DNA of 33,962 nt from the IMG/VR virus record IMGVR_UViG_3300032053_000277, positions 1 to 33,962 of that record, one strand, 5' to 3'. The stretch comes from a virus. Within the stretch, counting starts at the first letter, position 1, and every line of letters begins with the position of its first letter. Shown here in pieces: positions 2 through 33,430 of the stretch. The translations under genes and the position numbers were made by a program. The notes under the pieces were generated by a model. The model saw nothing but the letters and a program-made list of their open reading frames with translations. It was not told the DNA's origin and ran no database searches.

Positions 2-214
2 AGCGAAAGCATAAGGGCAAGTCTGGGAGACCTTGACAAGTTGATACGGCTTGAGGAATTTATCCATGGCGGTCCCGACAGCCGGCCCGATGCACTGAGC
101 GGGATAGAGGGTATAATTAGGGAATTAGGGAAAAAAAGGGCGATAGAGCATAGGGATGTAATTGCCGAAGACCGAAAAATAATCAATGGAACAGGTTCAG
201 ACAATTCCGAATAG
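2..214 (+). CDS. Probable small terminase subunit, C-terminal part (5' end outside window)
   Basis: An open frame enters from the left edge and ends in TAG at 212-214, leaving 70 codons. The visible part is a charged, helix-rich tail with a GDLDKLIRLEEFIHGG stretch. That style of ending is common in small terminase subunits and other DNA-recognition proteins that precede the large terminase gene. It overlaps the next gene by 29 nt, so translational coupling is likely. The N-terminal DNA-binding part is missing, so the assignment rests on position and the C-terminal pattern. It could be another small DNA-binding protein. Confidence 0.55.
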   Translation, partial: SESIRASLGDLDKLIRLEEFIHGGPDSRPDALSGIEGIIRELGKKRAIEHRDVIAEDRKIINGTGSDNSE

Positions 215-2837
215 CATCAGGGACATCTGGGGTAGCGATGCACGCTATATCCAGCGATTCCTCTGTATCAGGGACAAGGTGGGGCGGATAGTCCCGTTCT
301 TCTTCAACCGGACGCAGGTGGCATACCGGCGGATGAAGGGGATGGAATTGGCCAGGAGGCGGGAGAGGGACAGGAACGCAAAGCCCCACTACCTTGTCCT
401 AAAATATAGGCAGGGGGGGATAACGACCGAGGAACAGGCGGAGAGTTTCTACCTGACGGCGACAAGGGAGAACCAGAGTCTTGTCACCCTTGCCCATGAC
501 AAGGCAAGCACGGTAGAGATATTCAGGATGGTCAACCTGTTTGACCGGAAACTTACGCCGGAGGTGAGGCCGGTCAGGGACTACGAGAACAAGGCCGAGA
601 TAGAGTATAAGGAACTCAATTCCAAGTTTCATATCGGGACGGCCGGGAACAGGACATTCGGGCGTGGCATGACACTTCAGCGGGCACATGGAAGTGAGAT
701 AGGATTATGGGGCAGGACCAAGACTGGTTATTCAATGAATGTGCAGGACATAGCCAACCTGATTGCCGGACTGTGCGAGGCATGTCCCTACGGCCCCGTG
801 GTGCTGGAGGGGACTGCCCAGGGTGCGAAGGGGTGGTTCTATGAGACATGGAATGAGGCTAAGAAGGGTGGGAACGACTGGATACCGGTATTCCTGCCCT
901 GGTTCATAGAGCCGATGAACTCATTTCCGTTTGAAATAGGTGAGGAAATAATCCTGACCGAGGAGGAGAAAAACTTCGTTGAAATGGTGGCAGGCAAATA
1001 TGGCATGGCAATCAGGCCGGAACAGATAAAGTGGCGCCGTGCCAAGCAGAACAGCCTCAAGGGACTATTTCAACAGGAGCATCCGGAATGTTTTACGGCT
1101 GATACGAAAATATCATTTCCCGATACCAATGGTCTTGATGTTTATAGAAATAAGCCGGAATGTTGCAAAGGTGAAAATGATGTTTTCCGCATTGAGACCG
1201 GGTTGGGTTATGCGGTTAAAGCGACGGAAAATCACCAATTTATGCTATCTGATGGTTCTTGGTGTCAATTAAAATGTCTGAAACAAAACGATTCCATCAA
1301 ATTATTGCCACCACGACTGGATGGAGAATATCAATATGTTTCATTAACCTACGACCTACCCATATTAAATAGTAGGATAAAAATAGATGAGGAACTCGCT
1401 GAATTTATCGGTGTTTTTATGGGGGATGGAAGTTTCTATAAGGACAAGAAGGGGAATTATTATAATCTAAGCATCGTATTTGACAGGCAGGATGCCGATG
1501 TCATAAGGAAGTATAAAAATTATCTAATTAAGGTATTCGGCAAAGTCAATGAAAGATTGACCGGGTCGAAGGATGGCGGGATAGAATTAAGGGTATCAAG
1601 CAAATGGTTGGACGTGCTGTTTGTTTCGTTGGATTTGGTGAGGCGGACAACCCCATCGGGACTCAAGAGTTCCGGAATAAAAAGAAAGGTTCATGTTCCC
1701 GACTATATTTTACGAAGCCCGAAGAGCGTGATTGCCTCTTTCTCAAGGGGGCTATTTGATGCCGATGGGTTTATCGGATACAGATATCCCCAGGTGAAAT
1801 TCTTTACGAAATATGAGGATTTTATGAGAGACATTCAGTTATTGTTATTAGGGTTCGGCATTACGGGTAAAGTAAATGCGGTAGTTAAAAAACATACTGA
1901 TGGGCACAATTATGTTGGCAGGGAATTATGTTTGCGGAAATCGGAAACGGAAGCATACATGAAGGAGATAGGTTTTATTTCAAAAAGGAAAAACAATAGG
2001 TGGATAAATAGAATACCTTTACATAGAGGCGGATGGAAGGGACATGGAATCGTATTTATTGACAAGATAAAGGAAATCAAATATATCGGTAAGGAATTGG
2101 TTTTTGACAGGGAGGTAATACCAGAACATTATTATTCTGCTAACGGATTTTATGTTCACAATTCTGATGTCACCGCCTTTCTGGTCTCCGGCCAGCACTA
2201 CTTTGATATATCAATCATAAACAAACTGGTTGAACTGTGCAAATCGCCGATAGAGGTAAGGGATGACGGATGCCTGACTGTCTGGGCCAGGCCGGTTGAG
2301 GGGCATAGGTATATCATAGGGGGTGATGTAGGGGAAGGTCTGCCTAACTCCGACTTCTCGGTCGGAGGGGTGCTTGACTACGAGACCTGCGAGCAGGTGG
2401 CCTGCCTGCGGGGCAGGTGGAAGCCGGAGGTATTCGGTGAGAAGATGGCGAAACTCGGATATGAATACAACACAGCATTGCTGGCTCCGGAGGCGAACAA
2501 CCACGGGCATAGCACGCTTAACACCCTACTGAATGCCATCCACTACCCGCGGCTCTATTATCATAGGGACTATGATACCACCAGCCAGTCCACCAAACTC
2601 GGCTGGCAGACAAATGCCAAGACCAGACCGACCATGCTTAGTGGCATAAAGATGGCGGTTGAGGACAACCTTATGAAAGTCAACTGTCCGATATTCCTGT
2701 CCGAGTGCCGGAACTTCCAGGACTCGGGCGAGGGAAAATACGAAGGCGACCATGATGATACAGTTATCGCCTGGGCCATTTGCTGGTCTGTTAGACAGAT
2801 AGGTTTTGGCCCCGAGCCGAGGGTATCGATGATATAA
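186..2837 (+). CDS. Terminase large subunit, interrupted in frame by an intein
   Basis: ATP-driven DNA packaging motor and headful/site nuclease. The 883-aa reading frame contains a 358-aa intein (residues 302-659); the mature protein would be 525 aa, normal for the family. The N-terminal ATPase half has a Walker A-like loop (LKYRQGGITT) and a Walker B-like HGSEIGLWG. After the intein comes the RNase H-like nuclease, with GGDVGEG (first Asp at about residue 714), a later acidic site in LLAPEANN, and a terminal GDHDDTVIAWA carrying the final acidic pair. The extein junction rejoins as QEHPE|SDVTAF, which matches the conserved QEYP..-EEAF-like segment between ATPase and nuclease. No strong Shine-Dalgarno precedes ATG 186; overlap with the upstream gene suggests coupling. 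Walker A departs from the classical GKT/S form, as in many related terminases. Confidence 0.93.
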   Translation: MEQVQTIPNSIRDIWGSDARYIQRFLCIRDKVGRIVPFFFNRTQVAYRRMKGMELARRRERDRNAKPHYLVLKYRQGGITTEEQAESFYLTATRENQSLVTLAHDKASTVEIFRMVNLFDRKLTPEVRPVRDYENKAEIEYKELNSKFHIGTAGNRTFGRGMTLQRAHGSEIGLWGRTKTGYSMNVQDIANLIAGLCEACPYGPVVLEGTAQGAKGWFYETWNEAKKGGNDWIPVFLPWFIEPMNSFPFEIGEEIILTEEEKNFVEMVAGKYGMAIRPEQIKWRRAKQNSLKGLFQQEHPECFTADTKISFPDTNGLDVYRNKPECCKGENDVFRIETGLGYAVKATENHQFMLSDGSWCQLKCLKQNDSIKLLPPRLDGEYQYVSLTYDLPILNSRIKIDEELAEFIGVFMGDGSFYKDKKGNYYNLSIVFDRQDADVIRKYKNYLIKVFGKVNERLTGSKDGGIELRVSSKWLDVLFVSLDLVRRTTPSGLKSSGIKRKVHVPDYILRSPKSVIASFSRGLFDADGFIGYRYPQVKFFTKYEDFMRDIQLLLLGFGITGKVNAVVKKHTDGHNYVGRELCLRKSETEAYMKEIGFISKRKNNRWINRIPLHRGGWKGHGIVFIDKIKEIKYIGKELVFDREVIPEHYYSANGFYVHNSDVTAFLVSGQHYFDISIINKLVELCKSPIEVRDDGCLTVWARPVEGHRYIIGGDVGEGLPNSDFSVGGVLDYETCEQVACLRGRWKPEVFGEKMAKLGYEYNTALLAPEANNHGHSTLNTLLNAIHYPRLYYHRDYDTTSQSTKLGWQTNAKTRPTMLSGIKMAVEDNLMKVNCPIFLSECRNFQDSGEGKYEGDHDDTVIAWAICWSVRQIGFGPEPRVSMI
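1089..2162 (+). mobile_element. Intein with LAGLIDADG homing endonuclease in the terminase gene
   Basis: Protein-splicing element of 358 aa. It begins with Cys302 (CFTADTKI, block A), has a block B TxxH (T347-E-N-H350), and ends with FYVHN659 followed by extein Ser660, the canonical His-Asn|Ser splice junction. Between the splicing halves lie two LAGLIDADG motifs, FIGVFMGDGSF (about residues 407-417) and SRGLFDADGFIG (about 520-530), each with its acidic residue intact, so the nuclease may be active. The insert is richer in A+T than the flanking extein DNA, consistent with separate ancestry. All splice residues appear present, so splicing should work. Confidence 0.93.
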
Positions 2838-2846
2838 GGAGTAAAT

Positions 2847-3038
2847 ATGAAAAAGTCAGAATGGTGCTTAGTTTCCTGTGATAATTGTGATGGGGATGGA
2901 TGGAAATTGGAGATGTTACCATGTTATGAAGGAACGATTTCCAGAAAGATAATATGTCCCAAATGTAATGGGATGGGTAAATACTTTATTCCAATGGATA
3001 AGGCATTAAAGAAATATCCGAAGGTAATAACGATATGA
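2847..3038 (+). CDS. Small DnaJ-type zinc-ribbon protein
   Basis: A 63-aa protein preceded by a good ribosome site (AAGGAG, 2836-2841). Two CxxCxGxG-like knuckles are visible, CDNCDGDG near residues 11-18 and CPKCNGMG near residues 37-44. They form a four-cysteine zinc site like one half of the DnaJ central domain. The rest is short and charged. The protein probably binds zinc and contacts protein or nucleic acid, but no specific role can be assigned. It sits directly after the large terminase and overlaps the next gene by ATGA (3035-3038), so the small genes here are translationally coupled. Confidence 0.7.
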   Translation: MKKSEWCLVSCDNCDGDGWKLEMLPCYEGTISRKIICPKCNGMGKYFIPMDKALKKYPKVITI

Positions 3039-3190
3039 ACAAACCCAGGCGGTGCCTTGTCTGCGACAGGCCAATCAGGAAGCCGAGGCATGTCCACGAG
3101 AAGTGCCAGGGTGGTGAGGATGATATCGGGGCCTGCGTAAGCAGGACAAGGCACACTAAGGGAAGGAAGGGAATACGGTATGACCCGTAA
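3035..3190 (+). CDS. Small basic Cys/His protein (51 aa), putative zinc finger
   Basis: Starts at the ATG of an ATGA overlap with the preceding gene and overlaps the next start at 3180. The N-terminal half has a CLVCDRPI knuckle and then H..H...C residues (HVHEKC), a plausible C-x2-C...H/C zinc site; the C-terminal half is very basic (RTRHTKGRKG). This looks like a small nucleic-acid-binding protein. Similar short zinc proteins lie near terminase genes in many phages, but I do not recognise the family. The coupling on both sides is the main support that it is real. Confidence 0.55.
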   Translation: MNKPRRCLVCDRPIRKPRHVHEKCQGGEDDIGACVSRTRHTKGRKGIRYDP

Positions 3191-3461
3191 GGGGCGGCCG
3201 CGCCACTACGACATTTTAGAGAGAGTGGTGCCGAAGGGGTGCGGAAGTAACGACCTGTTGAAATTGACGCAGTTCTTCTGGCGTAATGACAAGCCGATAC
3301 AAAGGGACTGGTTAGTGGAGATTGGACAGGACGAAAAACACGCCGGTCTGATATGGTGCCATCTTCCGGACGAGGTGAGGCGGGCGCTGGTAAGTGATGT
3401 GGATAGGTGGAGTGGGAGGGTTGACATTAATATATTTAATCATCAGATAAAAGGGAGGTGA
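3180..3461 (+). CDS. Hypothetical protein, 93 aa
   Basis: An ATG-initiated frame overlapping the end of the previous small gene by 11 nt. The protein is charged and Trp-rich (FFWRND, RDWLVEIG, LIWCHLPDEV, DRWSG), predicted soluble and mostly helical, with no signal peptide or membrane segment. I do not recognise the family. It is probably part of the small accessory operon between terminase and portal; the next gene begins 4 nt after its stop. A role in packaging or in modulating host functions is possible but not shown. Confidence 0.6.
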   Translation: MTRKGRPRHYDILERVVPKGCGSNDLLKLTQFFWRNDKPIQRDWLVEIGQDEKHAGLIWCHLPDEVRRALVSDVDRWSGRVDINIFNHQIKGR

Positions 3462-3465
3462 GCCA

Positions 3466-3654
3466 ATGATAAGCCGGCAGGAGGAGAAGGAGAGGGCGTT
3501 CATCAACTTTATTACTGCCAAGGCGAAGGAATTCGTGGGTAGCAATTTCTACGGGCGGATGGTAATAGAGATGAAGGCGGGCAATATCGTCTTCATCAGG
3601 ACGGAGCAGACGACACAGATGGAGGACTTGATAGTCAAGGAAAGTGGTGGTTAA
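3466..3654 (+). CDS. Small YezD/DUF2292-like protein (62 aa)
   Basis: Starts after a strong ribosome site (GGGAGGTGA, 3454-3462). The C-terminal half, with YGRMVIEMKAGNIVFIRTEQ, has the pattern of the small YezD/DUF2292 family: a G-x-V/M-x-hydrophobic strand, then a G-x-I/V-V-x-I strand and a Thr-Glu. The family function is unknown and it is frequent in phages and bacteria. The N-terminal half is helical and charged. It is the last gene of this small cluster; the following 215 bp hold a promoter and terminator. The family match is by eye only. Confidence 0.6.
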   Translation: MISRQEEKERAFINFITAKAKEFVGSNFYGRMVIEMKAGNIVFIRTEQTTQMEDLIVKESGG

Positions 3655-3683
3655 GATATTTTGCATAAAATAATATTATTTGC

Positions 3684-3711
3684 TTGATTTCAAATAATGG
3701 CACTGTATACT
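3684..3711 (+). promoter_or_regulatory. Sigma70-like promoter upstream of the portal gene
   Basis: TTGATT (3684-3689), a 16-bp spacer and TATACT (3706-3711), preceded by A+T-rich sequence. Predicted start is near 3718. It lies in the only substantial gap between the terminase and head genes. Confidence 0.5.
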
Positions 3712-3731
3712 TTATAACATATAAATGGCAC
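3696..3731 (+). repeat. Direct repeats AATGGCAC flanking the -10 box
   Basis: AATGGCAC occurs at 3696-3703 and again at 3724-3731, 28 bp apart, one copy on each side of the TATACT box. The placement fits an operator, but two 8-mers in A+T-rich DNA could be chance. Confidence 0.35.
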
Positions 3732-3856
3732 GATGTAATTTACGGTCTATAAAATTGAAACCAGTATGCACTAAGAAGATTTAAGTAGGCAAGTTCGGAT
3801 AGCGGAAGAACCGAAGTCCGGGCGACAGTCAACCGACTGCCGTTCGGACTTTTTTA
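3718..3856 (+). ncRNA. Candidate short leader/attenuated RNA ahead of the portal gene
   Basis: The interval from the predicted start near 3718 to the terminator at 3814-3856 would give an RNA of about 140 nt with no convincing reading frame. A second possible stem, TTCGG (3794-3798) with CCGAA (3811-3815), overlaps the base of the terminator stem by two nucleotides. The unit could therefore be an attenuator for the head operon or a free small RNA. This is inferred from promoter and terminator placement only. Confidence 0.3.
3814..3856 (+). terminator. Strong rho-independent terminator before the portal gene
   Basis: AAGTCCG (3814-3820) pairs with CGGACTT (3845-3851). The stem continues inward through G-T and G-C pairs and one A-C mismatch to CAGTC/GACTG (826-830/835-839 of the 3 kb block), with an AACC loop. 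A run of T residues follows (3850-3855), then ATTTT. It ends only about 14 nt before the portal ATG. Confidence 0.8.
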
Positions 3857-3869
3857 TTTTGGTCACGAA

Positions 3870-6800
3870 ATGAGCAAGATAAAGCGGATAGTCAGATACA
3901 AGCCGCCTGCCAAGAAGACAATTATTCCCGTCACCATAGAAAACAAGGCAGTCGCAGTCAAGCCGATATTGGATGAGAACACGCGAAGGTTTCTTGGGTT
4001 TGAGAAGGGCATCGGGAAGTTCCCGGCCGACCTGACATTCTTCCAATCGCTGAGGATGAGGATGTCCGGCGAGAATGTTATCGAGCCATATCGCCAGCAC
4101 GTCTGGGTGCATGTCGCCGTCAACACCATTGCCCAAAGTATAGCGTCCATCCCGTTCAAACTGGCGAGGGGCGAGGTCAAGAGCCCGAAAATCATAGAGA
4201 GCGGGCCGATATACAATCTCTTTATGAATCCCAATCCACACATGAGCCGACACCAGTTGTGGGAGGCGACGATGATTTACCTGGAACTGGAAGGCGAGTG
4301 CATGTGGCTTCTTGAGAGGCCGAAGGGTGCCGAGAATAAGTATAACATCCTACCGACCGAGATATGGCCGGTAAGCGGTAAGAATTTCAATCCGGTAATA
4401 GAAAATAACGTGTTTGTCGGGTGGAAATACCAGCCGATGGGAAGCGCCAAGGAGGAATACCTTACCCTCGCCCAGGTGATACAGTTCAAGTATTTCAACC
4501 CATACAACTACTACCGGGGACTGTCCCCGATAAGCGCCGCGAAGATGAGCATCGACCAGGACTGGAACGCGGCGAAATACAATCTCGCCTTCTTTGAGAA
4601 CTCGGCCGACCCGGGCGGGGTGCTAACCTACAAGGGCAATACCGGTCTCAATGACGACCAGCGGAAGGCAATCCGCGAGGGGTGGGAGGACAGGCACAAA
4701 GGTCCGAAGAACACCAGAAGGGTGGCACTGCTTGAGGGCGGGATGGAATACCAGCAGACGCAAGTGAGCCATACCGACATGCTTTTCCTTGAGGGCAGGA
4801 AATACAACCGGGACGAGATTTTCGCCATATACAAACTGCCCAAGTTTGAAGATTTGAACTTTGCTACGGCGAAGGTAAACGAGAGGTCATTCTGGCAGAA
4901 GACGCTCATCCCGAAGACGAACTACCTGATGGACATTCTTGAGGCAAAGGTATTCAAGTTCATAGAGGGTGGGGAGGTATGGGGATATTTCGACACGAGC
5001 GTGATTGAGGCGCTCCAAGAGGACTTCAATGCCAAGGTGGAGACTGGATACAAACTGTGGCAGATGGGATATCCCATAAACAAGGTGAACAAGCGTCTTG
5101 AGATGAACCTTGAGCCGGTGCCATGGGGGGACGAGATATTTGTGCCGTTCTCAATGACGCCGATAACATCACTGATGGGCGGGGAAGGCAAGCCACCAGA
5201 GGAGACCACGCCGCCCGCACCCGTGCAGGAGTCGGCAAGGAAATTACTACCTGCCAAGTCAACTCTCAAGATGGACAGGGACAAATACTGGAATGGGTAT
5301 GTGAAGATGATACTCGACCCGAATGAAAAGAAGTTTCAGAGCAAGATAAAACGGTATGTCTTTGAACTGAGGTCAGAGCAGTTAAAGAGACTGGAGAGTG
5401 GGAAGACGGCCGAACAGCGGACTGCTGTCACTAAACTTGACTCGTTTGAACTTGACCAGGTCCTGTTCGCACAGCAGGAGTGGGACAAGAAACTGAAGGC
5501 GCTTACCCGTCCCCTCTACGAGACGATAATGACGATGGCGGGCGAGCAACTATCCGAAGAGATGGGCGGACTGTTCCAGTTCAACCTCACCGACCCGAAG
5601 ATGCTGGCATTCCTTAATGAAAAACTAATAAAAGTGACTGACATAAACGATACGATAAGGGGCAACCTCAGGGAATCGTTGATGGAGGGCATAAATGCCA
5701 AGGAGACGATAGGGGAACTGCAGGACAGGGTGAGGACGGTATTCAACTTTACCTCTAACCGTTCGCTGACCATAGCGAGGACGGAGACGGCCCAGACCGC
5801 ATCGGGGACGAGGTTCCTGGTGATGAAACAGGAGGGGGTGGAATACCAGGAATGGCTCAGTGCGAGGGATGAACTGGTAAGGACGACCCCGTATAATCAT
5901 GCCATTGACGGTGAGGTTGTGGCGGTTGGCGACAGGTTCTCAAACGGACTGAGGTATGCGTCTGATGTAGATGGTGCGCCGGGGAACGTGATTAATTGTT
6001 TTATAGAGGGAAGAACTAAGGTATTTACTGACAAAGGATTTAAGAGTATAGCCCATATAAAAAGTGGGGACTCGGTTTTGACCCATAATGGTAGATTCAA
6101 GAATGTAACCAGGATATTCAAAGGAAGATTAAAAATTGGTTCGGAAGTAGTGAGAATAATATTACCAAAACGGCATGGTCGTTGCAGAAAAGGTGTGATA
6201 ACCACTACTCCTGAACATAGATTTTTAACTCAACGGGGATGGGTTGAGGCGAAAGATTTGATGCAGACTGATAAGTTAATGATAATGGCTGGATTCTGTG
6301 GACATTGCGGAAAGAAGATTCCTTATTACAGGAAGTTCTGCTCAAAACTTTGTTGGAGTAGAAAAACAGTCACAGAACAATGGAAAAACCCGAAGCACAG
6401 GGAAATCATTAGCCAAAAAGCATCAATCCAACTAAAAAAGGAATATGCCAACGGCACGAGAGACAGGAATGAGATAACGAAGGTGGCGAGAAAGAAGTGC
6501 TTTGAAATATACGGTGACGGTGGATATCTGAAATATGACCCGTCGGTTCACGAGAAAGGCAAGCAAGCAATCATAAGTAAATACGGTTCCACATTGAACA
6601 TGCTTAAGCAGAAAGCATTTTCGGCGCTTGGTAAGGCGGGGTGGTATGGTTCATCTCTTGATAGGGCGATGCAGAGATTTCTTGATAATAACGGACGCAA
6701 ATATATCCAACAACACTGGGTGGGAAGGAGGCGGGTGGATTTTTATTTGCCGGACGAGAAGATGTTTATTGAATGCGATAGTCAAGCCTATCATAATGAT

Positions 6801-7103
6801 GCACAAAAAGAGAGAAGGAGAGACTTGGAAATTCTACTGCAACATCCTGACCACCAAATGGCACATTGCAACTACGGTGGGAAAAAGCCGAGGTGGGAAT
6901 TCTTTGACCTGAAAGCATTGAATCATTCGGGAACTTATGAGTTCACCGAGATTGACATAAAGAAAATAGAGAAATACCAGATAAGGAAAACGATGCCATT
7001 GTATAACTTTGCGGTTCAGGATGATGAATCATATCTGGTTTATGGAATTGTTAGTCATAATTGTAGATGTCTTTGCACATTTTCACGGGCGCCCAAGGAA
7101 TAA
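3870..7103 (+). CDS. Portal protein fused to MuF-type minor head protein, interrupted by an intein
   Basis: The 1077-aa frame minus a 355-aa intein gives a 722-aa protein. Residues about 45-425 are an HK97-type portal, the dodecameric DNA channel at the capsid vertex, with typical segments HVWVHVAVNTIAQSIASIPF and the AKYNLAFFENSADPGGVL region. A Pro-rich linker follows (about 440-460). The C-terminal third is a MuF-like domain with ARTETAQTASG, HAIDGEV and a terminal N|CRC motif that the intein splits exactly. Portal and MuF proteins are usually separate, although fusions are known. ATG 3870 has no clear Shine-Dalgarno (upstream GGTCACGAA) and lies right after a strong terminator, so its expression probably depends on read-through or an unusual initiation. 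Confidence 0.92.
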   Translation: MSKIKRIVRYKPPAKKTIIPVTIENKAVAVKPILDENTRRFLGFEKGIGKFPADLTFFQSLRMRMSGENVIEPYRQHVWVHVAVNTIAQSIASIPFKLARGEVKSPKIIESGPIYNLFMNPNPHMSRHQLWEATMIYLELEGECMWLLERPKGAENKYNILPTEIWPVSGKNFNPVIENNVFVGWKYQPMGSAKEEYLTLAQVIQFKYFNPYNYYRGLSPISAAKMSIDQDWNAAKYNLAFFENSADPGGVLTYKGNTGLNDDQRKAIREGWEDRHKGPKNTRRVALLEGGMEYQQTQVSHTDMLFLEGRKYNRDEIFAIYKLPKFEDLNFATAKVNERSFWQKTLIPKTNYLMDILEAKVFKFIEGGEVWGYFDTSVIEALQEDFNAKVETGYKLWQMGYPINKVNKRLEMNLEPVPWGDEIFVPFSMTPITSLMGGEGKPPEETTPPAPVQESARKLLPAKSTLKMDRDKYWNGYVKMILDPNEKKFQSKIKRYVFELRSEQLKRLESGKTAEQRTAVTKLDSFELDQVLFAQQEWDKKLKALTRPLYETIMTMAGEQLSEEMGGLFQFNLTDPKMLAFLNEKLIKVTDINDTIRGNLRESLMEGINAKETIGELQDRVRTVFNFTSNRSLTIARTETAQTASGTRFLVMKQEGVEYQEWLSARDELVRTTPYNHAIDGEVVAVGDRFSNGLRYASDVDGAPGNVINCFIEGRTKVFTDKGFKSIAHIKSGDSVLTHNGRFKNVTRIFKGRLKIGSEVVRIILPKRHGRCRKGVITTTPEHRFLTQRGWVEAKDLMQTDKLMIMAGFCGHCGKKIPYYRKFCSKLCWSRKTVTEQWKNPKHREIISQKASIQLKKEYANGTRDRNEITKVARKKCFEIYGDGGYLKYDPSVHEKGKQAIISKYGSTLNMLKQKAFSALGKAGWYGSSLDRAMQRFLDNNGRKYIQQHWVGRRRVDFYLPDEKMFIECDSQAYHNDAQKERRRDLEILLQHPDHQMAHCNYGGKKPRWEFFDLKALNHSGTYEFTEIDIKKIEKYQIRKTMPLYNFAVQDDESYLVYGIVSHNCRCLCTFSRAPKE
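5997..7061 (+). mobile_element. Intein with zinc ribbon and Vsr-like (EDxHD) nuclease in the portal-MuF gene
   Basis: A 355-aa intein running from Cys710 (CFIEGRTKVFTDKGFKSI, block A) to Asn1064 (GIVSHN), followed by extein Cys1065. Block B is TTTPEHRFL (TxxH). The nuclease insert is not LAGLIDADG. It has a four-Cys zinc ribbon (C810-x2-C813-x10-C824-x3-C828), a basic helical linker, and a Vsr/DUF559-like core (about residues 929-990) with VDFYLP (Asp957), IECD (Glu968, Asp970) and His975. This arrangement matches the EDxHD homing endonuclease class described in phage inteins and introns. Insertion lies exactly before the conserved CRC of the MuF motif. Splice residues look intact. Confidence 0.9.
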
Positions 7104-7121
7104 TAAATAAGGAGGAACGGT

Positions 7122-7865
7122 ATGGAATTAACGAGAAAGGTAATGAACTTTGATGTGAAGGCGGTTGAGGGAAATGACAACGTCCTCGAATTCACCGGCT
7201 CGGACGAGACGGTGGACAGGGCGGGCGACATAATGACACTGGAGGGATGGGACCTGGAATCATACCTAAAGAACCCGGTCTTCATGCTATTCCACGACTA
7301 TCGCTCCCTACCGGTTGGCAAGGCGATTGAGGTGGTGAAGGATATGACGGCCAAGAAACTGAGGTTCAAGATAGAGTTTCCCACCGAGGACGTCTACCCG
7401 CTGGGACAGACGGTCAAGAAACTATACCAGAACAAGTTTCTCAACGCGACATCGGTCGGCTTTGTTCCGAAGAAGTGGGAGGCAAGGACGGACGAGTCAG
7501 GGAAGGAGGCCGTGGGAAGGAAATACCTTGAGCAGGAACTTCTTGAACTGTCGGCCGTCCCGGTGCCGTGCAATCCCAATGCCCTGATGGAGTCCTGTGG
7601 TAAGGGAATATTCACGGCTGACGAGTGCGTCAAGATGGAGGAGAGCGAGATAATCTCAAGGGAAACACTAACGGGCATACTGGAAAAACTCGGTGTCAGT
7701 GTCGTGATTAAGAACGCAGAAAATAAAATATGGGAGGACGACCCGGACTGGACTGAGATAAGATATCGGGTAAGGAATCCCGACCTGTTCGTAAGTAATA
7801 GTTTTAGGCGTAAGAAAATGCCTGGTATTAATATCTATATGATACTGGGAAAACTTAAAGGTTAA
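7122..7865 (+). CDS. Prohead maturation protease, N-terminal (catalytic) fragment
   Basis: HK97-type (U35) capsid maturation protease that trims scaffold/capsid N-termini inside the procapsid. The catalytic His is H58 (MLFHDYRSLPVG) and the Ser is S111 (NATSVGFVPKKWE); VDRAGDIM and LLELSAVPVPCNPNA are other family segments. After the protease domain (about residues 1-165), a C-terminal region (WTEIRYRVRNPDLF, SFRRKK, MILGKLKG) matches a domain that usually continues into an IQSLRFPK-AEHP segment. Here the frame stops at TAA 7863-7865 and that continuation is found at 8616. The gene is therefore split by the endonuclease gene at 7870. Ribosome site AAGGAGG lies at 7110-7116. The catalytic part looks intact. 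Confidence 0.88.
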   Translation: MELTRKVMNFDVKAVEGNDNVLEFTGSDETVDRAGDIMTLEGWDLESYLKNPVFMLFHDYRSLPVGKAIEVVKDMTAKKLRFKIEFPTEDVYPLGQTVKKLYQNKFLNATSVGFVPKKWEARTDESGKEAVGRKYLEQELLELSAVPVPCNPNALMESCGKGIFTADECVKMEESEIISRETLTGILEKLGVSVVIKNAENKIWEDDPDWTEIRYRVRNPDLFVSNSFRRKKMPGINIYMILGKLKG

Positions 7866-7869
7866 TAAT

Positions 7870-8619
7870 ATGCCAAAAGACAAAGAAAACTCATTTTATA
7901 GTAAAAAACTTTCCGAAGAACACAAAAAGAAAATAGGTCTTGCTCATAAGAGTTATATGAAAAGATTAGGACTTACCTTCAAAGGGAAAGAAAATCCATT
8001 TTATGGAAAACATCATACCGAAGAAACCAAGAAAAAAATGAGTTTAGCAAAAACAGGCAAAAGACTTTCTAAGGAACATATTGAAAAATGTGCTCAAGGA
8101 CATAGGGGCTTAAAATATCCGCCTAAAAGCGAAGAGGCAAGACTTAAAATAGGCATAAAATCAAAAGGTCATAAGATGCCAGATGTAACCAGAAAGGCAT
8201 TGTTAAAATCCCGTTTAGGTATACCACTATCAGCAGAACACAGAGAGATAATGAAAAAGATAATGTTAGGCAATAAACATGGGCAAAAACCCAAAGGATA
8301 TGAATATAAAACTCCTATTATGAAAAATATAAGAAATTCTATTAGGAATCAACAATGGAGACAGAATATTTTTATTAGAGACAATTTTACTTGTCAAAAG
8401 TGTAGAATAAAAAGCGGATGCGGTCATAAAGTTAGTTTTGAAGCACATCATATTACATCTTTCAAAAGTCTATTAGAAGAAGCCAAAAAATATATGCCAT
8501 TATTCTCTCTTTATGAAGCCGCAATGTTATATTCCCCGTTATGGGATATTAATAATGGTATAACTCTTTGTGATAAATGTCATGATTTAACCAGAATGGT
8601 TAAGAAGGAGAAATTATGA
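7870..8619 (+). CDS. NUMOD3/HNH homing endonuclease splitting the protease gene
   Basis: A 249-aa protein with several NUMOD3 DNA-binding repeats in the N-terminal two thirds (KLSEEHKKKIGLAHKS, TEETKKKMSLAKTGK, SEEARLKIGIKSKG, SAEHREIM), each a S/T-x-E-x4-K-I/M type helix. The C-terminal HNH domain has C175-x2-C178, AHHI (H193, H194) and a final NNGITLCDKCHDL. The gene is strikingly A+T-rich against its G+C-richer neighbours. It begins 4 nt after the stop of the protease fragment and ends in ATGA overlap with the next fragment (8616-8619). It therefore fills the whole insertion and leaves no room for a group I ribozyme. It is probably a free-standing homing nuclease that spreads by cutting uninterrupted protease genes. 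Confidence 0.92.
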   Translation: MPKDKENSFYSKKLSEEHKKKIGLAHKSYMKRLGLTFKGKENPFYGKHHTEETKKKMSLAKTGKRLSKEHIEKCAQGHRGLKYPPKSEEARLKIGIKSKGHKMPDVTRKALLKSRLGIPLSAEHREIMKKIMLGNKHGQKPKGYEYKTPIMKNIRNSIRNQQWRQNIFIRDNFTCQKCRIKSGCGHKVSFEAHHITSFKSLLEEAKKYMPLFSLYEAAMLYSPLWDINNGITLCDKCHDLTRMVKKEKL

Positions 8620-9152
8620 GCGAAGAAAAAAAAGATGAAGGATATTTTATCCAGTCCCTCCGTTTTCCTAAGCCCGAATGGAATCTTGAGAAGGCGAAGA
8701 AGTGGGTGGCAGAGCATCCGGACATCGGCAAGTCCTTTGATGACAAGTTACCGGAAGTCGGTTATCTTGACGATAAAGGAAATGTTATAAAACTGGAATG
8801 GATTGACTGCGATGCCGAGGGCAATCCCATCAAGCAAGATGATAATAACAAGGTAAAAGTTGAAGTGGCAACCGAGTCTGAAGGATTGAAGGAAATGATT
8901 GTCCAGATTCTTAATAGCATTGAACACGTATCGGTCGAACAGAAGATGATTCTGGAAGAAGTAAAATCAATCGGGCTAATGAAGGATGTTATCAAGGAAA
9001 TACTGGCGAGACTGTCCACCAAGGATGCGGGGGATGTCGTTCCCGTGGCCGATTCCGGCGACAAGCCAAAAGATGAGGCCTCAGGCGGGAAGGGCGTGTT
9101 TTCCGTCATTCTTGACATGGGGAGCAAAACCAGCAAGAACCTTGAGAAATAG
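8616..9152 (+). CDS. C-terminal fragment of the split protease gene, re-initiated
   Basis: A 178-aa protein whose first 40 residues (GYFIQSLRFPKPEWNLEKAK, then KWVAEHPDIGKS) are the expected continuation of the protease C-terminal region that stops at 7865. It has its own start in ATGA overlap with the HNH gene and a ribosome site (AAGGAG, 8606-8611). The remainder is acidic and coiled-coil-like (about residues 75-135), ending in a Gly/Lys-rich tail. That region could act as an internal scaffold, as scaffold-like segments fused to HK97-type proteases do. The fragment is in the same reading frame as the upstream fragment. Whether the two halves associate is unknown. Confidence 0.75.
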   Translation: MSEEKKDEGYFIQSLRFPKPEWNLEKAKKWVAEHPDIGKSFDDKLPEVGYLDDKGNVIKLEWIDCDAEGNPIKQDDNNKVKVEVATESEGLKEMIVQILNSIEHVSVEQKMILEEVKSIGLMKDVIKEILARLSTKDAGDVVPVADSGDKPKDEASGGKGVFSVILDMGSKTSKNLEK

Positions 9153-9186: not shown

Positions 9187-10359
9187 ATGGAACCAAAAGA
9201 GAAGGAAGCAATGGAAATGCTGACCAAGATAAACGGCGGCATTGACGGGTTGAAGGGCGACATCACCGGTGTTAAGGACCAGGTGGCGTCCCTTGACCAG
9301 CGCATCGTGGTAGTCGAGAGTTCAATGAAGTCCCGGATACCATCGGTGCCCGGCGTGGACGGGGGCAAGGAAAAGTTCTCGTTCCAGAAGTTCTTCAACG
9401 CCATAGCGATAAAGGACTGGACCGACGCCGGCTACGAGAAGTCGGTTTGTGACGCGACCAAGAAGGTAATGACTGTCGGCGCTCCCACGGCTGGCGGATA
9501 CCTCGTTCCGCCAGAGGCAATGACGGAACTAATTCCCCTGCTCCGTGCCAAGAGCGTCTGCAGGGAACTCGGGGCCACCGCACTGGACGGCCTGACCGGT
9601 TCCCCGGTAACCATTCCGAAGCAGACGGGCGGGGCGACCGGCTACTGGGTAGCTGAGAATGCCGCAGTAACCCCAAGCGACCTTGCCACCGGGCAACTTT
9701 CGCTTACTCCCCGGACAGGAGGCGCATTGTGCGTGATGTCCAACCGGCTATTAAGGATGAGCAATCCCACGATTGAGAGTGTTGTCAGGAACGACATAGC
9801 CAAGACCCTTGCCAACCTTCAGGACCTCGCGGCACTGAGGGGGACTGGGACGGACCAGCCCACCGGCATAGCCAACACTGCCAACATCAATACCAAGGTG
9901 CTCGGAGCGGCCGGCGCCATTCCCACCATTGACGACATCGAGGCGATGCTGTTGGAGATTGAGGTGGACAATGCAGAGGCCGAGACTATGGGCATAGCGG
10001 TTAATCCGAGGATTTGGAGTGTTTTCCGCAGGATTAAAGACCTGGATGGGAAACCACTGCTCGTGATTGACATAGCATCGCCGTTTAAGGGGACGATATT
10101 CGGGATGGCAGTCAGAAAGACCACCCAGATACCGGTCAACCTGTCCAAGGGCGGCTCCACCAACCTGTCGGAAATCTACCTGGGCAACTGGGCCGACCTG
10201 GTAATCGCCACATGGGGTGGTATGGAGGTCATGGCCTCCCAGGAGACAAGCGACGCGTTTGCCAAGAACAACACCTGGATTCGCATCCTGCAGGATATCG
10301 ATGTCGGGCTGAGACACCCCGAGTCGTTCTGCCTGTGTGCTGATGCCAAGATTGCGTAG
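9187..10359 (+). CDS. Major capsid protein, HK97 fold
   Basis: A 390-aa shell protein. The N-terminal about 50 residues form a coiled-coil-like delta domain (MLTKINGGIDGLKGDITGVK region) likely removed by the maturation protease. The HK97 body begins around GAPTAGGYLVPPEAMTELIP and continues through the SPVTIPKQTGG segment, an N-arm/E-loop-like stretch and RGTGTDQPTGIAN. I chose ATG 9187 because a ribosome site (AAGGAGGAA, 9170-9178) precedes it; an upstream in-frame ATG at 8986 lies deep inside the preceding gene and encodes implausible sequence. It follows the protease genes in the usual order. A terminator-like hairpin follows. Confidence 0.93.
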   Translation: MEPKEKEAMEMLTKINGGIDGLKGDITGVKDQVASLDQRIVVVESSMKSRIPSVPGVDGGKEKFSFQKFFNAIAIKDWTDAGYEKSVCDATKKVMTVGAPTAGGYLVPPEAMTELIPLLRAKSVCRELGATALDGLTGSPVTIPKQTGGATGYWVAENAAVTPSDLATGQLSLTPRTGGALCVMSNRLLRMSNPTIESVVRNDIAKTLANLQDLAALRGTGTDQPTGIANTANINTKVLGAAGAIPTIDDIEAMLLEIEVDNAEAETMGIAVNPRIWSVFRRIKDLDGKPLLVIDIASPFKGTIFGMAVRKTTQIPVNLSKGGSTNLSEIYLGNWADLVIATWGGMEVMASQETSDAFAKNNTWIRILQDIDVGLRHPESFCLCADAKIA

Positions 10360-12218: not shown

Positions 12219-12227
12219 GGAGGAACT

Positions 12228-12725
12228 ATGAACGAGAAAATCAAGATTAGGGGAACGGGTTTTGCAGTCCTGACCAATATCAAGACGGGCGAGAAGAGAA
12301 TCATACCATTAAAGAACATAGTCACGAACGACGGGGACAGGTATTACGCCACCAAGGGCGCGGGCGAGTCCGCATACTTCACGGTGGGCGGTATGAGGCT
12401 GGGGACGGGTGTGGATGCGCCAGTGAAGGCCGACACGGACGTTGAGACGTTCCTTGCCGGTTCGGGCAAGGTCATTTACGCCACCTATCCCAAAACGAAC
12501 GATACCGACCCGGACAACACGGGGGCGGCGGTGGATAGTGTTAGTTGGTGCGTATCCTATGCCGCGGGGGAGGCGACCGGCGATAATATTTCCGAGTTGG
12601 CCATTGTGGATAACATAGTTACCCCGACCAAGGCACTGAACCATGCACTGTTTGCGGCGCCATTCAATAAGACGGCGGCCGATACCCTGAAGGTGTTCGT
12701 TAACCATAACTTATTGGGGACATAA
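12228..12725 (+). CDS. Virion-type structural protein of unknown role (165 aa)
   Basis: Ribosome site AAGGAGG at 12218-12224. The protein is beta-rich and Thr/Ala/Gly-rich, with a KNIVTNDGDRYYA opening and MRLGTGVDAPVKADTDVETF. This pattern (loss-of-turn VTNDG, then a GTG..AP..-TDT segment) is common in small phage structural proteins encoded between the connectors and the tail, some of which are tail-fibre or decoration components. No catalytic motif is seen. I cannot assign a precise role. Confidence 0.6.
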   Translation: MNEKIKIRGTGFAVLTNIKTGEKRIIPLKNIVTNDGDRYYATKGAGESAYFTVGGMRLGTGVDAPVKADTDVETFLAGSGKVIYATYPKTNDTDPDNTGAAVDSVSWCVSYAAGEATGDNISELAIVDNIVTPTKALNHALFAAPFNKTAADTLKVFVNHNLLGT

Positions 12726-12728
12726 CTG

Positions 12729-12968
12729 ATGGCAAAGACAGTAGGGGAAATCTGGACTCAGTATAGGCAACTGGACATCGGACTGATTGCGCAGAACGAG
12801 TCCGGCAGTTTGGGTGAGGACGAGTTCATCCGCCTGCACCTTCTCTGCTGGCTGAGGTGCGAACAGGAACTGATAGCGGGGGACTACCGGATGGACTATG
12901 CCGTAGACACGACCGGCAGGATGCGGTCTCAGGAGATACGGGAAAACATAGGCAGGCTGGAAGGATAA
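12729..12968 (+). CDS. Hypothetical protein, 79 aa
   Basis: Begins 3 nt after the preceding stop and ends 1 nt before the next start, so it is packed in the operon. The protein is charged and helical with two cysteines (HLLCWLRCEQELIAG) and no membrane segment or known motif. Its ribosome site is weak (GGGGACATAACTG), which suggests coupling to the upstream gene. It may be a chaperone or an assembly factor for the large neighbouring virion protein, but nothing in the sequence proves that. Confidence 0.55.
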   Translation: MAKTVGEIWTQYRQLDIGLIAQNESGSLGEDEFIRLHLLCWLRCEQELIAGDYRMDYAVDTTGRMRSQEIRENIGRLEG

Positions 12969-12969
12969 T

Positions 12970-14673
12970 ATGCTGGAACTTGCGGAAAAGAGGAAAGAGA
13001 ATAGCAAGACCTACGACCTTGGCGGGGGTAGGTTTGCCACCGATATTCACAAGGGTTCAGTCCACTACAAGGATGACTATGCGGATGGTGAGGAACAGTG
13101 GAAGGACATCAATACTACCATCAATGAAGTGGACGGGGCATTAACTGTAAGCAATGCCCCCTATAACCTCACTATTTACAATGACCGGATAGGGTTCAGG
13201 ATTGATTCCAAGATAGCGGGCTGGATTGAGATTGAGGTTAAAGGAAATCCTAACTTATCAAATAGAACCGTAAATGGCAACCGCATTACTTATATCAATG
13301 CCTTTGACGATATAGACATTATCATTGAGGCGAGGAATGAAGGGGCGGCAATCCTGAAGAAAATCAAGGTGAAGGTATCAAAGAAAATCAGGTATAAGAT
13401 TAAACAGAACAAGGGGGCGAGGCACCATAATGTTCAGGAGTTCCTAAACTGCACCGATGCAGAAGGCAATCAGGTTGAGGCATCGCAGGTCAGGGTGCTG
13501 GTGGATGAGAATGGCGATACCGAGACGCACGAACGGGTGGAGGACATAAAGGACAAGAAGATTGACGGGACTGAGCCAGTATATCCCGTTACGGTAGATG
13601 TAATTATAAACCCGCAGGTATCGGCAGGCACGGATGACGGGATGGGTTGTTCGGCCACTGGTTTTTGGTATCTGACTCTTGCCTATCTATACCTTGGAAG
13701 CCTGTTAGGAAATGAATACGGCACCGCCATCCGTTTTGCTCACGTAAATGTCCCGAAGGATGCAGTAATAGATGTGGCGTATCTTGCCTTCAACGCCTAT
13801 GGGAGCAATTCAGGGGTTACTTGCAGAGAATATTTCTATGTTGAAGACCAGGACAATCCTGTTACCTATTCCACCCTCGTTAATTTCATGGGCAGGGCTT
13901 GGTCCGACATAAGTGTAGCGTGGGATCCCGTTCCGGGCTGGGTGGAAGGCTACCCATACGTTACTCCATCTATAGTCTCACTGGTGCAGAGGATAGTCAA
14001 CAGGGCAGGCTGGGTAGCCAATAATGCGATGTCATTTGCGGGGGTATCCATTGGTTCTGGTAGCAATGCCTACCGTAGACCTTGGAGTTATAACGGTGCA
14101 TCTTGGTTAGCCCCGATACTGCATATTGAATATACCTATGGTGTTGCCATCGTCAAGGTGGTCAATGAGACGGAAGGGGTGGTTGACACGTCAGTGAGCA
14201 AACTGTTTCGGGCACTCGTGAAGGTGGTGAACGAGACGGCCGGACTGATCGAGTCGGTTGTTAGTAAGATGGGACTGGTCAGGGTAGTTAACGAGACGGA
14301 GGGGATAGGCGAGGAGATAGTCGCCGTGGGCGGGACGCCGATATTTGACCTCGTTCCCGAGTTTGAGTATGTCCAGAGGCACAGTTATTCCGTCTTGAAG
14401 TCGTCGTTCACGGACGGGGCGGTGATGAGGCGGGCGGTCCACGACAGGCGGATGAGGGAGTTTGACCTGCGGTGGAAGAATGCCACCAGGACGGAGAGGG
14501 ACAGGCTGGTGTGGCTATATAAGAACAGGCGGGGTAGGGCGGGCATAATGTTCTACGTCCCCGTAGACGAGTCATCCGAGATTAAGGTCAGGTTTTCCGA
14601 GGACAGCCTGAGCATTCCCAAGAAACAGCACGGAAACTACGAGATGTCCGTGAAACTTATAGAGGTATTGTAA
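12970..14673 (+). CDS. Large virion protein: DNRLRE/CBM-like sugar-binding domain plus gpM-like tail domain
   Basis: A 567-aa protein with several parts. Residues about 1-185 are a beta-rich region (YDLGGGRFATDIHKGSVHYK). Residues about 195-395 resemble the DNRLRE/CBM-type beta-sandwich: IRFAHVNVPKDAVIDVAYLA, then CREYFYVED, VAWDPVPGW and VQRIVNRAGWVANNAMSF, a pattern seen in secreted carbohydrate-binding proteins. Residues about 390-452 hold three short repeats centred on V(K/R)VVNET(E/A)G. The last about 110 residues (from FDLVPEFEY) resemble the small tail protein encoded at 24143, sharing R-F/EFD, T-ERD-L, FY-P-DE, IK and S-SIPKK-type positions. It may be a virion fibre or baseplate-associated adhesin. 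It lies just upstream of the glycosyltransferase cassette. Confidence 0.65.
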   Translation: MLELAEKRKENSKTYDLGGGRFATDIHKGSVHYKDDYADGEEQWKDINTTINEVDGALTVSNAPYNLTIYNDRIGFRIDSKIAGWIEIEVKGNPNLSNRTVNGNRITYINAFDDIDIIIEARNEGAAILKKIKVKVSKKIRYKIKQNKGARHHNVQEFLNCTDAEGNQVEASQVRVLVDENGDTETHERVEDIKDKKIDGTEPVYPVTVDVIINPQVSAGTDDGMGCSATGFWYLTLAYLYLGSLLGNEYGTAIRFAHVNVPKDAVIDVAYLAFNAYGSNSGVTCREYFYVEDQDNPVTYSTLVNFMGRAWSDISVAWDPVPGWVEGYPYVTPSIVSLVQRIVNRAGWVANNAMSFAGVSIGSGSNAYRRPWSYNGASWLAPILHIEYTYGVAIVKVVNETEGVVDTSVSKLFRALVKVVNETAGLIESVVSKMGLVRVVNETEGIGEEIVAVGGTPIFDLVPEFEYVQRHSYSVLKSSFTDGAVMRRAVHDRRMREFDLRWKNATRTERDRLVWLYKNRRGRAGIMFYVPVDESSEIKVRFSEDSLSIPKKQHGNYEMSVKLIEVL

Positions 14674-15031: not shown

Positions 15032-15982
15032 ATGGAAACAGTGGTAAGTCCGAGGTCAAAGCCAATCCTCAAGCATAGGGGGAGGAAGAAGGAAATCCTC
15101 ATCATGCGCCGGCAGGGCGGGATAGGGGATATCCTCAACAGCCGGATGATGTTTGAGGACATAAAGAAGTCTTATCCGGACAAGGGACTGGTCTATGCTG
15201 TGCCGGAGGAGTTCATTCCGTTGGTGTCCGACCACCCGTTCATAGACAAGGTGCTTGACTGGGAGCATATTAGCACCATGGGATGGTATATATTCGCCGA
15301 CATAACAAACAGGTGTGGTGAATACGAGCACCGGCACATGCCGAATGTTGACAAGCACCGGAGCGACATCTGGGCGGAAAGTGCCGGGATAAAACTGACT
15401 AACCATAATATGCACATATCGTTCAATGACGGTGAGATTGAGTTTGCGAAAGGCATCCTTGAGGGGATAACAAAACCGATTGTCACCATACAGCCGGTCT
15501 CGGCCCACCCGTCCAAGGACTGGCCAATGGATAGGTGGCAGGAAGTGGTAGATATCATAAGCAAAAATTATGGTTTTAGCATAATATGTTTCCATAATAA
15601 GGAATTACCAATCAAGAATGTCATAATGATGGGTGGAAATGTCAACCTGCGCGAGTGGATGGCGATAACAAGCCAGTGCGACCATGTCATCACGGTGGCG
15701 ACGTCAATGTATTGTCTTGCCAATGGACTGCATAAGCCGACCGTGGCGATATTCGGGTGCGAGGACTTGGACATATACGGCAGGTATTTTCCCGAAATGG
15801 TTCCGGTGCAGAGGCACAGGAAGAACAGTGACGGGTGGGGCGACTGCCCCTGCTGGCAGGCGTGGAAGGGATGCAGAAAAAATGACAACAAACCCGTCTA
15901 TCCGCCGCCATGCTTAAGTAGCATCACTGTTGACGAGGTGATGAAAGGGTTTGACAGATGCGTAAAGATGAGCCAAAAATAA
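15032..15982 (+). CDS. Glycosyltransferase family 9 (heptosyltransferase-like)
   Basis: A 316-aa GT-B enzyme predicted to transfer a sugar from a nucleotide donor to a growing glycan. The N-terminal Rossmann start is ILIMRRQGGIGDIL, with the GGxGD loop typical of ADP-heptose:LPS heptosyltransferases. The second domain begins PIVTIQPVSAHPSKDWPMDR and contains ITVATSMYCLANGLHKPTV, the donor-binding region. The C-terminus has CPCW..GC..C cysteines, as in other phage and bacterial GT9 members. Ribosome site AGGGAGATAG. It opens a five-gene cassette with short overlaps, inserted between connector-type genes and the tail terminator. The acceptor cannot be inferred from sequence. Confidence 0.8.
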   Translation: METVVSPRSKPILKHRGRKKEILIMRRQGGIGDILNSRMMFEDIKKSYPDKGLVYAVPEEFIPLVSDHPFIDKVLDWEHISTMGWYIFADITNRCGEYEHRHMPNVDKHRSDIWAESAGIKLTNHNMHISFNDGEIEFAKGILEGITKPIVTIQPVSAHPSKDWPMDRWQEVVDIISKNYGFSIICFHNKELPIKNVIMMGGNVNLREWMAITSQCDHVITVATSMYCLANGLHKPTVAIFGCEDLDIYGRYFPEMVPVQRHRKNSDGWGDCPCWQAWKGCRKNDNKPVYPPPCLSSITVDEVMKGFDRCVKMSQK

Positions 15983-16638
15983 AAAGAATATCCTCGGACT
16001 ATTATAATGAGAGGTATTTTACGGACAACTGGTATGACAATAACTCGTTTGCTTTGGACAATTTATTTCATAGAGAGATTGCGGAACTGTTCGTTGACAT
16101 TATGAAACCTCTTAAATACGACTCGGTGCTGTCAATAGGGTGCGCCCTTGGCAATGTTATTTACTGGCTGACCAAGATGGGATATGACGGGCACGGGATT
16201 GACATCTCGGAGTATGCGGTGAACCATACCCATATTCCGGGCAGGGTTACGCAGGGCGATGTGATAGATGGACTGCCCTACAAGGATGGCATGTTTGATT
16301 ACGTCTTCTCAAGGGACACGCTGGAGCATATAGCGGAGGAGCATATCCCGAAGGTGATAGCCGAGATGGAAAGGGTGTTGAGGGTGGACGGCGGGATGTT
16401 ACTGATGCCCGCGAACAACTTCAACGACAAGGAGGTCAAGAAGCAACTGAACTGCGCCGGCCCGAACCACGAGGATGGGAGCCACCTATGCGTCAAGTCG
16501 CCATACTGGTGGGCCGAGATGATGGAAAAGCATGGCAAGAAACTGGTGGTCGACTACAAGCGGACGCTCTATGGGATGGCTAATCAGATGGCGGAGAAAA
16601 ATTCGTGGACGGCATTGGTGGTGAGGAAGACGATATGA
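15958..16638 (+). CDS. Class I SAM-dependent methyltransferase (glycan/small-molecule type)
   Basis: A 226-aa methyltransferase overlapping the GT9 gene by 25 nt. Motif I is VLSIGCALGNVIYWL, the acidic end of strand 2 is GHGIDISEYAV, motif II/III is GDVIDGLPYKDGMFDYVFSR, and DTLEHI is the post-II helix. These match UbiE/Coq5-like and sugar-O-methyltransferase enzymes. No DPPY or NPPY DNA-methylase motif and no PC motif are seen, so DNA methylation is unlikely. Its place between two glycosyltransferases points to methylation of a sugar or of a sugar-carrying product. The ending overlaps the next gene by ATGA. Confidence 0.8.
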   Translation: MRKDEPKIKRISSDYYNERYFTDNWYDNNSFALDNLFHREIAELFVDIMKPLKYDSVLSIGCALGNVIYWLTKMGYDGHGIDISEYAVNHTHIPGRVTQGDVIDGLPYKDGMFDYVFSRDTLEHIAEEHIPKVIAEMERVLRVDGGMLLMPANNFNDKEVKKQLNCAGPNHEDGSHLCVKSPYWWAEMMEKHGKKLVVDYKRTLYGMANQMAEKNSWTALVVRKTI

Positions 16639-17744: not shown

Positions 17745-17820
17745 TGGACGGAACTACAAGGATGAGAAGCCGGAGTATACGGAGTGGCCGTCACTAAGGC
17801 CGATGGGAACGGATAGGTGA
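17692..17820 (+). CDS. Candidate small, very basic overlapping protein (42 aa)
   Basis: An ATG frame that starts inside the 3' end of the GT9-like gene in another frame and ends 4 nt before the next start. The first half is almost all Lys/Arg, the second half (EKPEYTEWPSLRPMGTDR) looks like ordinary protein sequence. The basic half may simply be the shadow of the Lys-rich tail it overlaps. The ribosome site is poor. It fills the 80-nt gap before 17825, which is the only reason to take it seriously. Confidence 0.3.
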   Translation: MKKKRKRRPRRTRKQRDNGRNYKDEKPEYTEWPSLRPMGTDR

Positions 17821-17824
17821 AACT

Positions 17825-33355: not shown

Positions 33356-33419
33356 CCTATGCCTTCTGACTTGGTGCTTTCTGTTTATGATTGTAATTAG
33401 GGAAATATTAGGGAGATGA
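33348..33419 (+). CDS. 23-aa membrane micropeptide
   Basis: ATG 33348 with ribosome site AAGGAGG (33335-33341) and stop TGA 33417-33419. The peptide is almost entirely hydrophobic (LCLLTWCFLFMIVI) with Arg/Glu at the end, a single-span membrane micropeptide. The strong ribosome site is shared with no other start. It could also be a leader that positions ribosomes for the downstream gene. Confidence 0.45.
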   Translation: MLNLCLLTWCFLFMIVIREILGR

Positions 33420-33430
33420 AAGGAGATAAT

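Follow-up and report, generated by a model that had tools for sequence, protein, structure and literature searches.

The large terminase subunit (TerL) of crAss-like phages of the Delta group typically carries an intein, with two inteins in TerL in one case, and as many as 14 introns and three inteins are carried by crAss-like genomes of the Zeta group (PMC7886860). Mycobacteriophages also have inteins in TerL (PMC5050341), the minor head protein of the Mu-like cryophage AB09 contains an intein that is variable between near-identical phages (PMC7468147), and mobE in Aeh1 nrdA and mobA in T4 gene 60 are endonuclease genes that lie inside essential genes, the two halves of which are translated separately (PMC2988022). 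The intron-encoded nuclease gp210 of phage phiPA3 disables co-infecting phiKZ (PMC11620839). Here we describe a head and packaging operon in the IMG/VR virus record IMGVR_UViG_3300032053_000277, a linear metagenome contig of 33,962 bases, which is called the window below. The first 10.4 kb of the window encode TerL, small open reading frames (ORFs), a portal–MuF fusion protein, a prohead protease and the major capsid protein in this order, and TerL, the portal–MuF fusion and the protease are each invaded by a mobile element. Sequence comparisons make it very probable that three unrelated endonuclease elements entered this operon independently of one another, after the split from the lineage represented by records L002 and L008.

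Insertions and insertion-free relatives

A preliminary description of the window reported three insertions in three adjacent head and packaging genes, belonging to three different nuclease classes. Both statements are borne out and the coordinates are correct; the classes are LAGLIDADG, Vsr/EDxHD-type, which is the weaker assignment, and NUMOD3/HNH (Table 1). All three inserts are AT-richer than the host genes, with G+C contents of 31–40% versus 52–54%.

Three collinear relatives lack all three inserts, namely L002 together with L008, G001, and G005. L002 and L008 come from the same metagenome, and L002 ends with the same 18 nucleotides with which L008 begins. The records of the relatives are fragmentary, yet each empty site is covered. 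TerL, portal–MuF and the protease are uninterrupted in L002 and L008, which are about 92–97% identical to the window at the nucleotide level over most of the operon. G001 is 79–81% identical to the window in TerL and 65% in the portal, and G005 is 60% identical in TerL. No matches to the Intein_splicing profile are present in the L002, L008, G001 and G005 records. Because the closest known relatives have none of the inserts, the inserts look like recent arrivals rather than inherited features. According to the preliminary description, the same three inserts at identical divergence in all close relatives would have meant old vertical inheritance; the three collinear relatives are in fact free of all of them, which supports independent, non-vertical gain.

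Terminase intein

The terminase intein corresponds to residues 302–659 of TerL, with the junctions QEHPE/C...VHN/SDVTAF, where the slash marks the splice site. The splicing residues, which are Cys1, the TENH sequence of block B, the C-terminal HN and the +1 Ser, are intact, and the two LAGLIDADG helices with their acidic residues (EFIGVFMGDGSF and SFSRGLFDADGF) are kept in the relatives of this intein. L002 TerL is a continuous match to extein residues 1–525 of the window, with 93% identity. Over its full length, the window intein has 36% identity with the terminase intein of the crAss-like phage cr56_1 (NC_055890), and it has 32% identity with that of L065, while the corresponding exteins barely align (E values of 0.002 and 0.09, respectively). 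A tree of 24 inteins groups the window with four inteins of crAss-like terminases (support 96/97). Only cr56_1 among these four is a named crAss-like phage, and the other three are called crAss-like because their TerL exteins group with that of cr56_1. The extein tree places the window TerL with the insert-free TerLs of L002, G001 and G005, and an extein tree forced to unite the window with the four crAss-like terminases is rejected (p of 0.0014 in the approximately unbiased (AU) test). Since the intein and extein phylogenies conflict, the terminase intein is, on phylogenetic grounds, an acquisition from outside the host TerL lineage. It shares the LAGLIDADG type, the host protein, the protein family and the tree neighbourhood with the crAss-like TerL inteins, but its host TerL is not crAss-like, and the insertion in cr56_1 lies two codons earlier. 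The terminase inteins of L065, L250 and L260 are in the same codon register as that of the window. The mycobacteriophage TerL inteins, in contrast, are described as lying within the ATPase domain, close to the motifs of that domain, and not in the QEYP...AF loop.

The upstream flank of the terminase insert falls from 94% identity with L002 to 76% at the junction (Fisher p of 4e-4), and the downstream flank has 57% nucleotide identity in the first 30 nucleotides versus 86% past +90 nucleotides (Fisher p of 1.5e-4), whereas L002 and G001 are about 75% identical to each other on either side of the site. The +1 residue is Ser in the window, the residue type that splicing needs, versus Asp in all three empty TerLs (L002, G001 and G005). 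The terminase insert appears to have arrived together with stretches of donor flank, by co-conversion, and this tract would have supplied the +1 Ser.

Related terminase inteins are found at 36 loci in 25 extein clusters (L148, L065, L247–L279 and window 1060–1120; L255 lacks the N-side), and all of them lie in one loop, [YFH]P-x5-[AS]F. The loop length is constant, five residues always separating P from the A/S of AF/SF, and the inteins occupy five codon positions in it, namely before P, P+0, P+1, P+2 and P+5. Because of the constant loop length, the different registers are not alignment gaps. At least nine register changes are required on the tree of 24 inteins, and the +1 residue is always C, S or T across the loop-inserted inteins. 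We met no published description of such register shifts, for which the literature was not searched specifically. A tentative and rather doubtful explanation is that this family, besides homing from allele to allele, re-enters the same constant-length loop of diverse terminases at shifted codons, replacing the flanks and bringing its own +1 C/S/T, so that relocation would be driven by flank replacement. In the window, the +1 Ser would on this view have taken the place of an ancestral Asp.

Portal–MuF intein

The second intein corresponds to residues 710–1064 of the portal–MuF fusion, with the junctions VIN/C...SHN/CRC, and its splicing signals (C1, TTPEH and SHN/C) are intact. It matches the Pfam profiles PT-HINT (3e-8) and Intein_splicing (2.5e-7) and, weakly, MTES_1575 and DUF559. 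Its predicted fold compares to solved inteins with a Z score of about 18, and since the fold search with the whole intein listed Hint-type matches only, it is silent on the nuclease half. Asp-248, Glu-259, Asp-261 and His-266 of the nuclease half are invariant in seven sequences, and among the members of the family MTES_1575 is matched by six of six, DUF559 by five of six and the Vsr profile of Pfam by one of six (at 0.04). The best PDB match of the nuclease profile, 3r3p, annotated as a "mobile intron protein", is weak (E value of 0.006). We take 3r3p to be I-Bth0305I, an EDxHD/Vsr-like enzyme with which the window nuclease has an R..DF...E.D....H core in common; I-Bth0305I is hosted by a group I intron, in contrast to the intein host in the window. 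This evidence fits an EDxHD/Vsr-like nuclease but falls short of being conclusive.

The MuF inteins of the Gordonia phages Barsten, Sitar and Lennon are inserted at the identical N/CRC site, the Sitar protein being annotated as "capsid morphogenesis protein + intein", but they lack the treble clef and the Vsr-like nuclease of the window intein. The family to which the window intein belongs occupies N/CRC in seven diverged MuF lineages (window, L003, L152, L153, L154/L155, L156 and L170). The inteins are more similar to each other than their exteins in 20 of the 21 pairs, with mean identities of 47% versus 32%. L170 is a Bacteroidota assembly and L171 a Patescibacteria assembly. A second Cys site is used in the MuF-like proteins of L157, L158 and L171 (HPRLDM/CDD in L157 and L158). 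The inteins at L158:5468–6058 and L157:1452–2546 are related, and that of L158 retains the zinc ribbon and has lost the nuclease. The portal intein as a single query found no relatives in IMG/VR, whereas a two-sequence alignment found eight. When the genome collection was scanned with the MuF intein profile, most of the hits were generic inteins, L170 and L171 being the only ones accepted as true relatives, and a literature search on MuF inteins gave nothing relevant.

Prohead protease gene split by an HNH gene

The prohead protease is encoded by a single ORF in L008 (419 residues) and in G001 (502 residues), whereas an HNH endonuclease gene splits the window gene into ORFs of 247 and 178 residues. 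The split lies about 90 residues C-terminal of the peptidase S78 domain (residues 52–157), and so the catalytic domain stays whole. The accessory region around the split was not recognised in G005. The first fragment ends with GKLKG and a stop codon, the ATG of the HNH gene follows 4 nucleotides further on behind AAAGG, and at its other end the HNH gene shares the sequence ATGA, stop codon and start codon overlapping, with the second fragment. In the empty alleles GPLKSDPEGGTK or GPLKTDPTGGTK is present at this site instead of GKLKG, and the GKLKG version of the window looks imported or drifted. The preliminary description held that all three insertions lie at highly conserved motifs of essential genes; this does not hold for the protease site, which is no universally conserved essential motif and at which GKLKG is not the sequence conserved in the clade.

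The HNH protein has an HNH_2 match and two NUMOD3 matches, and the AHH...N...CH residues are conserved with its relatives; a sequence search against PDB gave no match. An Rfam scan of the insert produced no match at the gathering level, the only sub-cut-off match with an E value of up to 1 being U6atac (18.3 of 33 bits). The insert was also considered as the ORF of a group I intron, and this was rejected because there is no Rfam intron and just about 30 nucleotides lie outside the ORF. What interrupts the protease is a free-standing gene dividing its host gene in two, and it is neither an intein nor intron-borne. It resembles mobE and mobA in being an endonuclease gene inside an essential gene, and overlapping stop and start codons such as those at the window HNH gene are known for T4 mobE, but its nuclease family and host gene are different. 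Similar stop/start overlaps with neighbouring genes are found for the HNH relatives L068, L071 and L073. Kin of the HNH gene are present four times in G005 (40403, 41307, 49046 and 53212) and once in G001 (30787), at unrelated loci, for example beside a helicase-loader-like gene, and none is present in L002 or L008. As judged from this sequence distribution, the HNH family moves between places within the clade. The HNH insert is unable to splice, and the second half of the protease probably restarts at ATGA behind a strong ribosome site. Because of this restart, the protease and its C-terminal part would be made as two chains, which may act together.

The left flank of the split is 96% identical to L008 at the nucleotide level up to about position 7778, some 80 nucleotides before the insert, and 61% identical thereafter (Fisher p of 5e-19). 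The right flank has 40–53% nucleotide identity in its first 60–70 nucleotides; counted by codon columns, the identity is 40% in the first 24 and 85% beyond them. In contrast, L008 and G001 are 70–74% identical to each other in the split stretch, although their identity towards the beginning of the gene is only 56%. The foreign flanks of the terminase and protease inserts appear to be co-conversion tracts, the HNH gene having come, like the terminase intein, with donor sequence. A search of phage records with the accessory domain of the split protease gave no match, and a search of IMG/VR with the L008 protease found L008 itself alone. An AlphaFold model of the uninterrupted protease has a mean predicted local distance difference test (pLDDT) score of 41, and so a placement of the split in a surface loop cannot be judged from it.

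Origin and persistence of the insertions

We propose that each element would spread by cutting the matching empty site of a co-infecting phage and then be copied in by break repair. Since two of the inserts are inteins with intact splicing residues, TerL and portal–MuF should be restored by protein splicing. Exchange within the clade is suggested only by the portal intein, the flanks of which are nearly identical to the empty allele, and by the HNH gene with its kin in G001 and G005. The preliminary description put forward that related phages often co-infect hosts in this habitat, which goes beyond the data; the inteins closest to that of the window terminase are in crAss-like terminases of unrelated phages.

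It is very unlikely that an ancestor carried all three inserts and that the relatives lost them. An insert-bearing allele can be replaced by an empty one through phage recombination, and L158 exemplifies nuclease loss within the MuF intein family, but old vertical inheritance requires the precise loss of all three inserts in three lineages, the empty alleles are similar to one another while the window flanks are foreign, and the phylogenies of the terminase intein and its extein disagree. An assembly or annotation artefact is the least plausible explanation of all: although the window is a single metagenome contig without reads, the reading frame continues through both inteins and their junction residues are intact, the host genes resume at every junction, and other assemblies independently contain each insert family at identical or comparable sites. 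Hardly more credible is the idea that the HNH ORF is a packaging protein and not a parasite. Packaging HNH proteins occur beside terminases, and this ORF sits within a head and packaging operon; however, NUMOD3 repeats are present in it, it interrupts the protease gene, the relatives lack it at this place, and its kin are at unrelated loci. The remaining proposal concerns persistence and is compatible with an origin by independent gain: the cluster may be kept for the benefit of the phage, the nucleases acting against essential head genes and thereby disabling co-infecting sister phages. All three targets are head or packaging genes, the portal target is nearly perfect in L008 (39 of 40 nucleotides), and phiPA3 gp210 acting on phiKZ is a precedent (PMC11620839). 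The clustering could nevertheless be due to chance or reflect a strong conservation of head genes that favours homing anywhere, and the terminase and protease target regions of the sister are strongly different from those of the window, so that such a benefit seems rather improbable.

Several points weigh against independent gain by active elements. The activity of the inserts is predicted from sequence only. No co-conversion tract flanks the portal insert, with 1 of 40 nucleotides at the junction differing between the window and L008, and therefore either the donor flanks were near-identical or the tract was very short. The identities of the MuF inteins and exteins correlate (r of 0.68), and so shared ancestry may explain part of their distribution. 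Both the intein and the extein trees contain long branches, and the exact sister of the terminase intein should accordingly be named with caution; drift of the split protease after insertion could mimic a foreign flank. The treatment of L002 and L008 as one genome rests on their identical 18-nucleotide end overlap, and read support is available for none of the records, all of which are fragments from metagenomes.

Gene organization of the window

Table 1. Features of the invaded operon and its surroundings in the window (id., identity; aa, amino acids; nt, nucleotides)
Feature	Position	Strand	Remarks
TerL ORF	186–2837	+	Intein at 1089–2162 inside
TerL N-extein (ATPase side)	186–1088	+	95.7% aa id. 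to uninterrupted L002 TerL; phrog_2, phrog_38407
Terminase intein, 358 aa, LAGLIDADG type	1089–2162	+	Pfam LAGLIDADG_3 8e-16, Intein_splicing 3e-9
TerL C-extein	2163–2837	+	Locally foreign over its first ~90 nt in comparison with L002
Portal–MuF fusion ORF	3870–7103	+	Intein at 5997–7061 inside
Portal–MuF N-extein	3870–5996	+	Phage_portal 1e-58, Phage_Mu_F 2e-7, phrog_2662 2.7e-99
Portal–MuF intein, 355 aa	5997–7061	+	Hint fold, treble clef and Vsr/EDxHD-type predicted nuclease
CxxC...CxxxC treble clef of portal–MuF intein	~6297–6353	+	
Vsr/EDxHD-type predicted nuclease of portal–MuF intein	~6654–6911	+	
Portal–MuF C-extein CRCLCTFSRAPKE	7062–7103	+	Gapless continuation relative to L008 porExt 608–722
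Prohead protease, first fragment, 247 aa	7122–7865	+	Peptidase_S78 domain complete; last ~80 nt foreign
AAAGG, likely ribosome site of HNH gene	7857–7861	+	Within final codons of protease fragment; read from sequence
Free-standing NUMOD3/HNH homing endonuclease gene, 249 aa	7870–8619	+	NUMOD3 2.7e-10, HNH_2 5e-5
AAGGAG Shine-Dalgarno	8605–8610	+	5 nt upstream of ATGA overlap; read from sequence
Protease, second fragment, 178 aa	8616–9152	+	84.7% aa id. to C-terminal part of 419-aa L008 protease; first ~60 nt foreign
Major capsid protein, uninterrupted	9187–10359	+	Phage_capsid 3e-51; 94% id. to L008

The window differs from its closest relative in other places as well. In the small-ORF region between TerL and the portal (L002:6658–7446; window 2835–3220), L002 has about 790 extra nucleotides, and the window has an extra ORF of 63 residues that is similar to the DnaJ CXXCXGXG zinc region. 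About 2.2 kb at 12221–14386 (ORFs 12228–12725 and 12970–14673) correspond to just 78 nucleotides in L008. By eye, several genes at 15032–19659, within the structural gene region, are glycosyltransferase- or methyltransferase-like, and an ORF at the right end (33416–33868) has a RadC/JAB-like HNHPSG motif.

Conclusions

Every component of this operon, and heavy insert loads as such, have precedents, and the finding clearly exemplifies a phenomenon that is already known. With three unrelated inserts in one operon and three collinear insert-free relatives to compare it with, the window is an unusually clean natural experiment, in which three nuclease classes can be compared directly for gain, donor relationship and co-conversion. 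The terminase intein of a non-crAss phage is tied to the pool of crAss-like terminase inteins, and a MuF intein family with a predicted Vsr-like nuclease is spread across phages, some of them in assemblies as distant as Bacteroidota and Patescibacteria. The staggered registers of the terminase inteins make the acquisition of a usable +1 residue by inteins directly testable.

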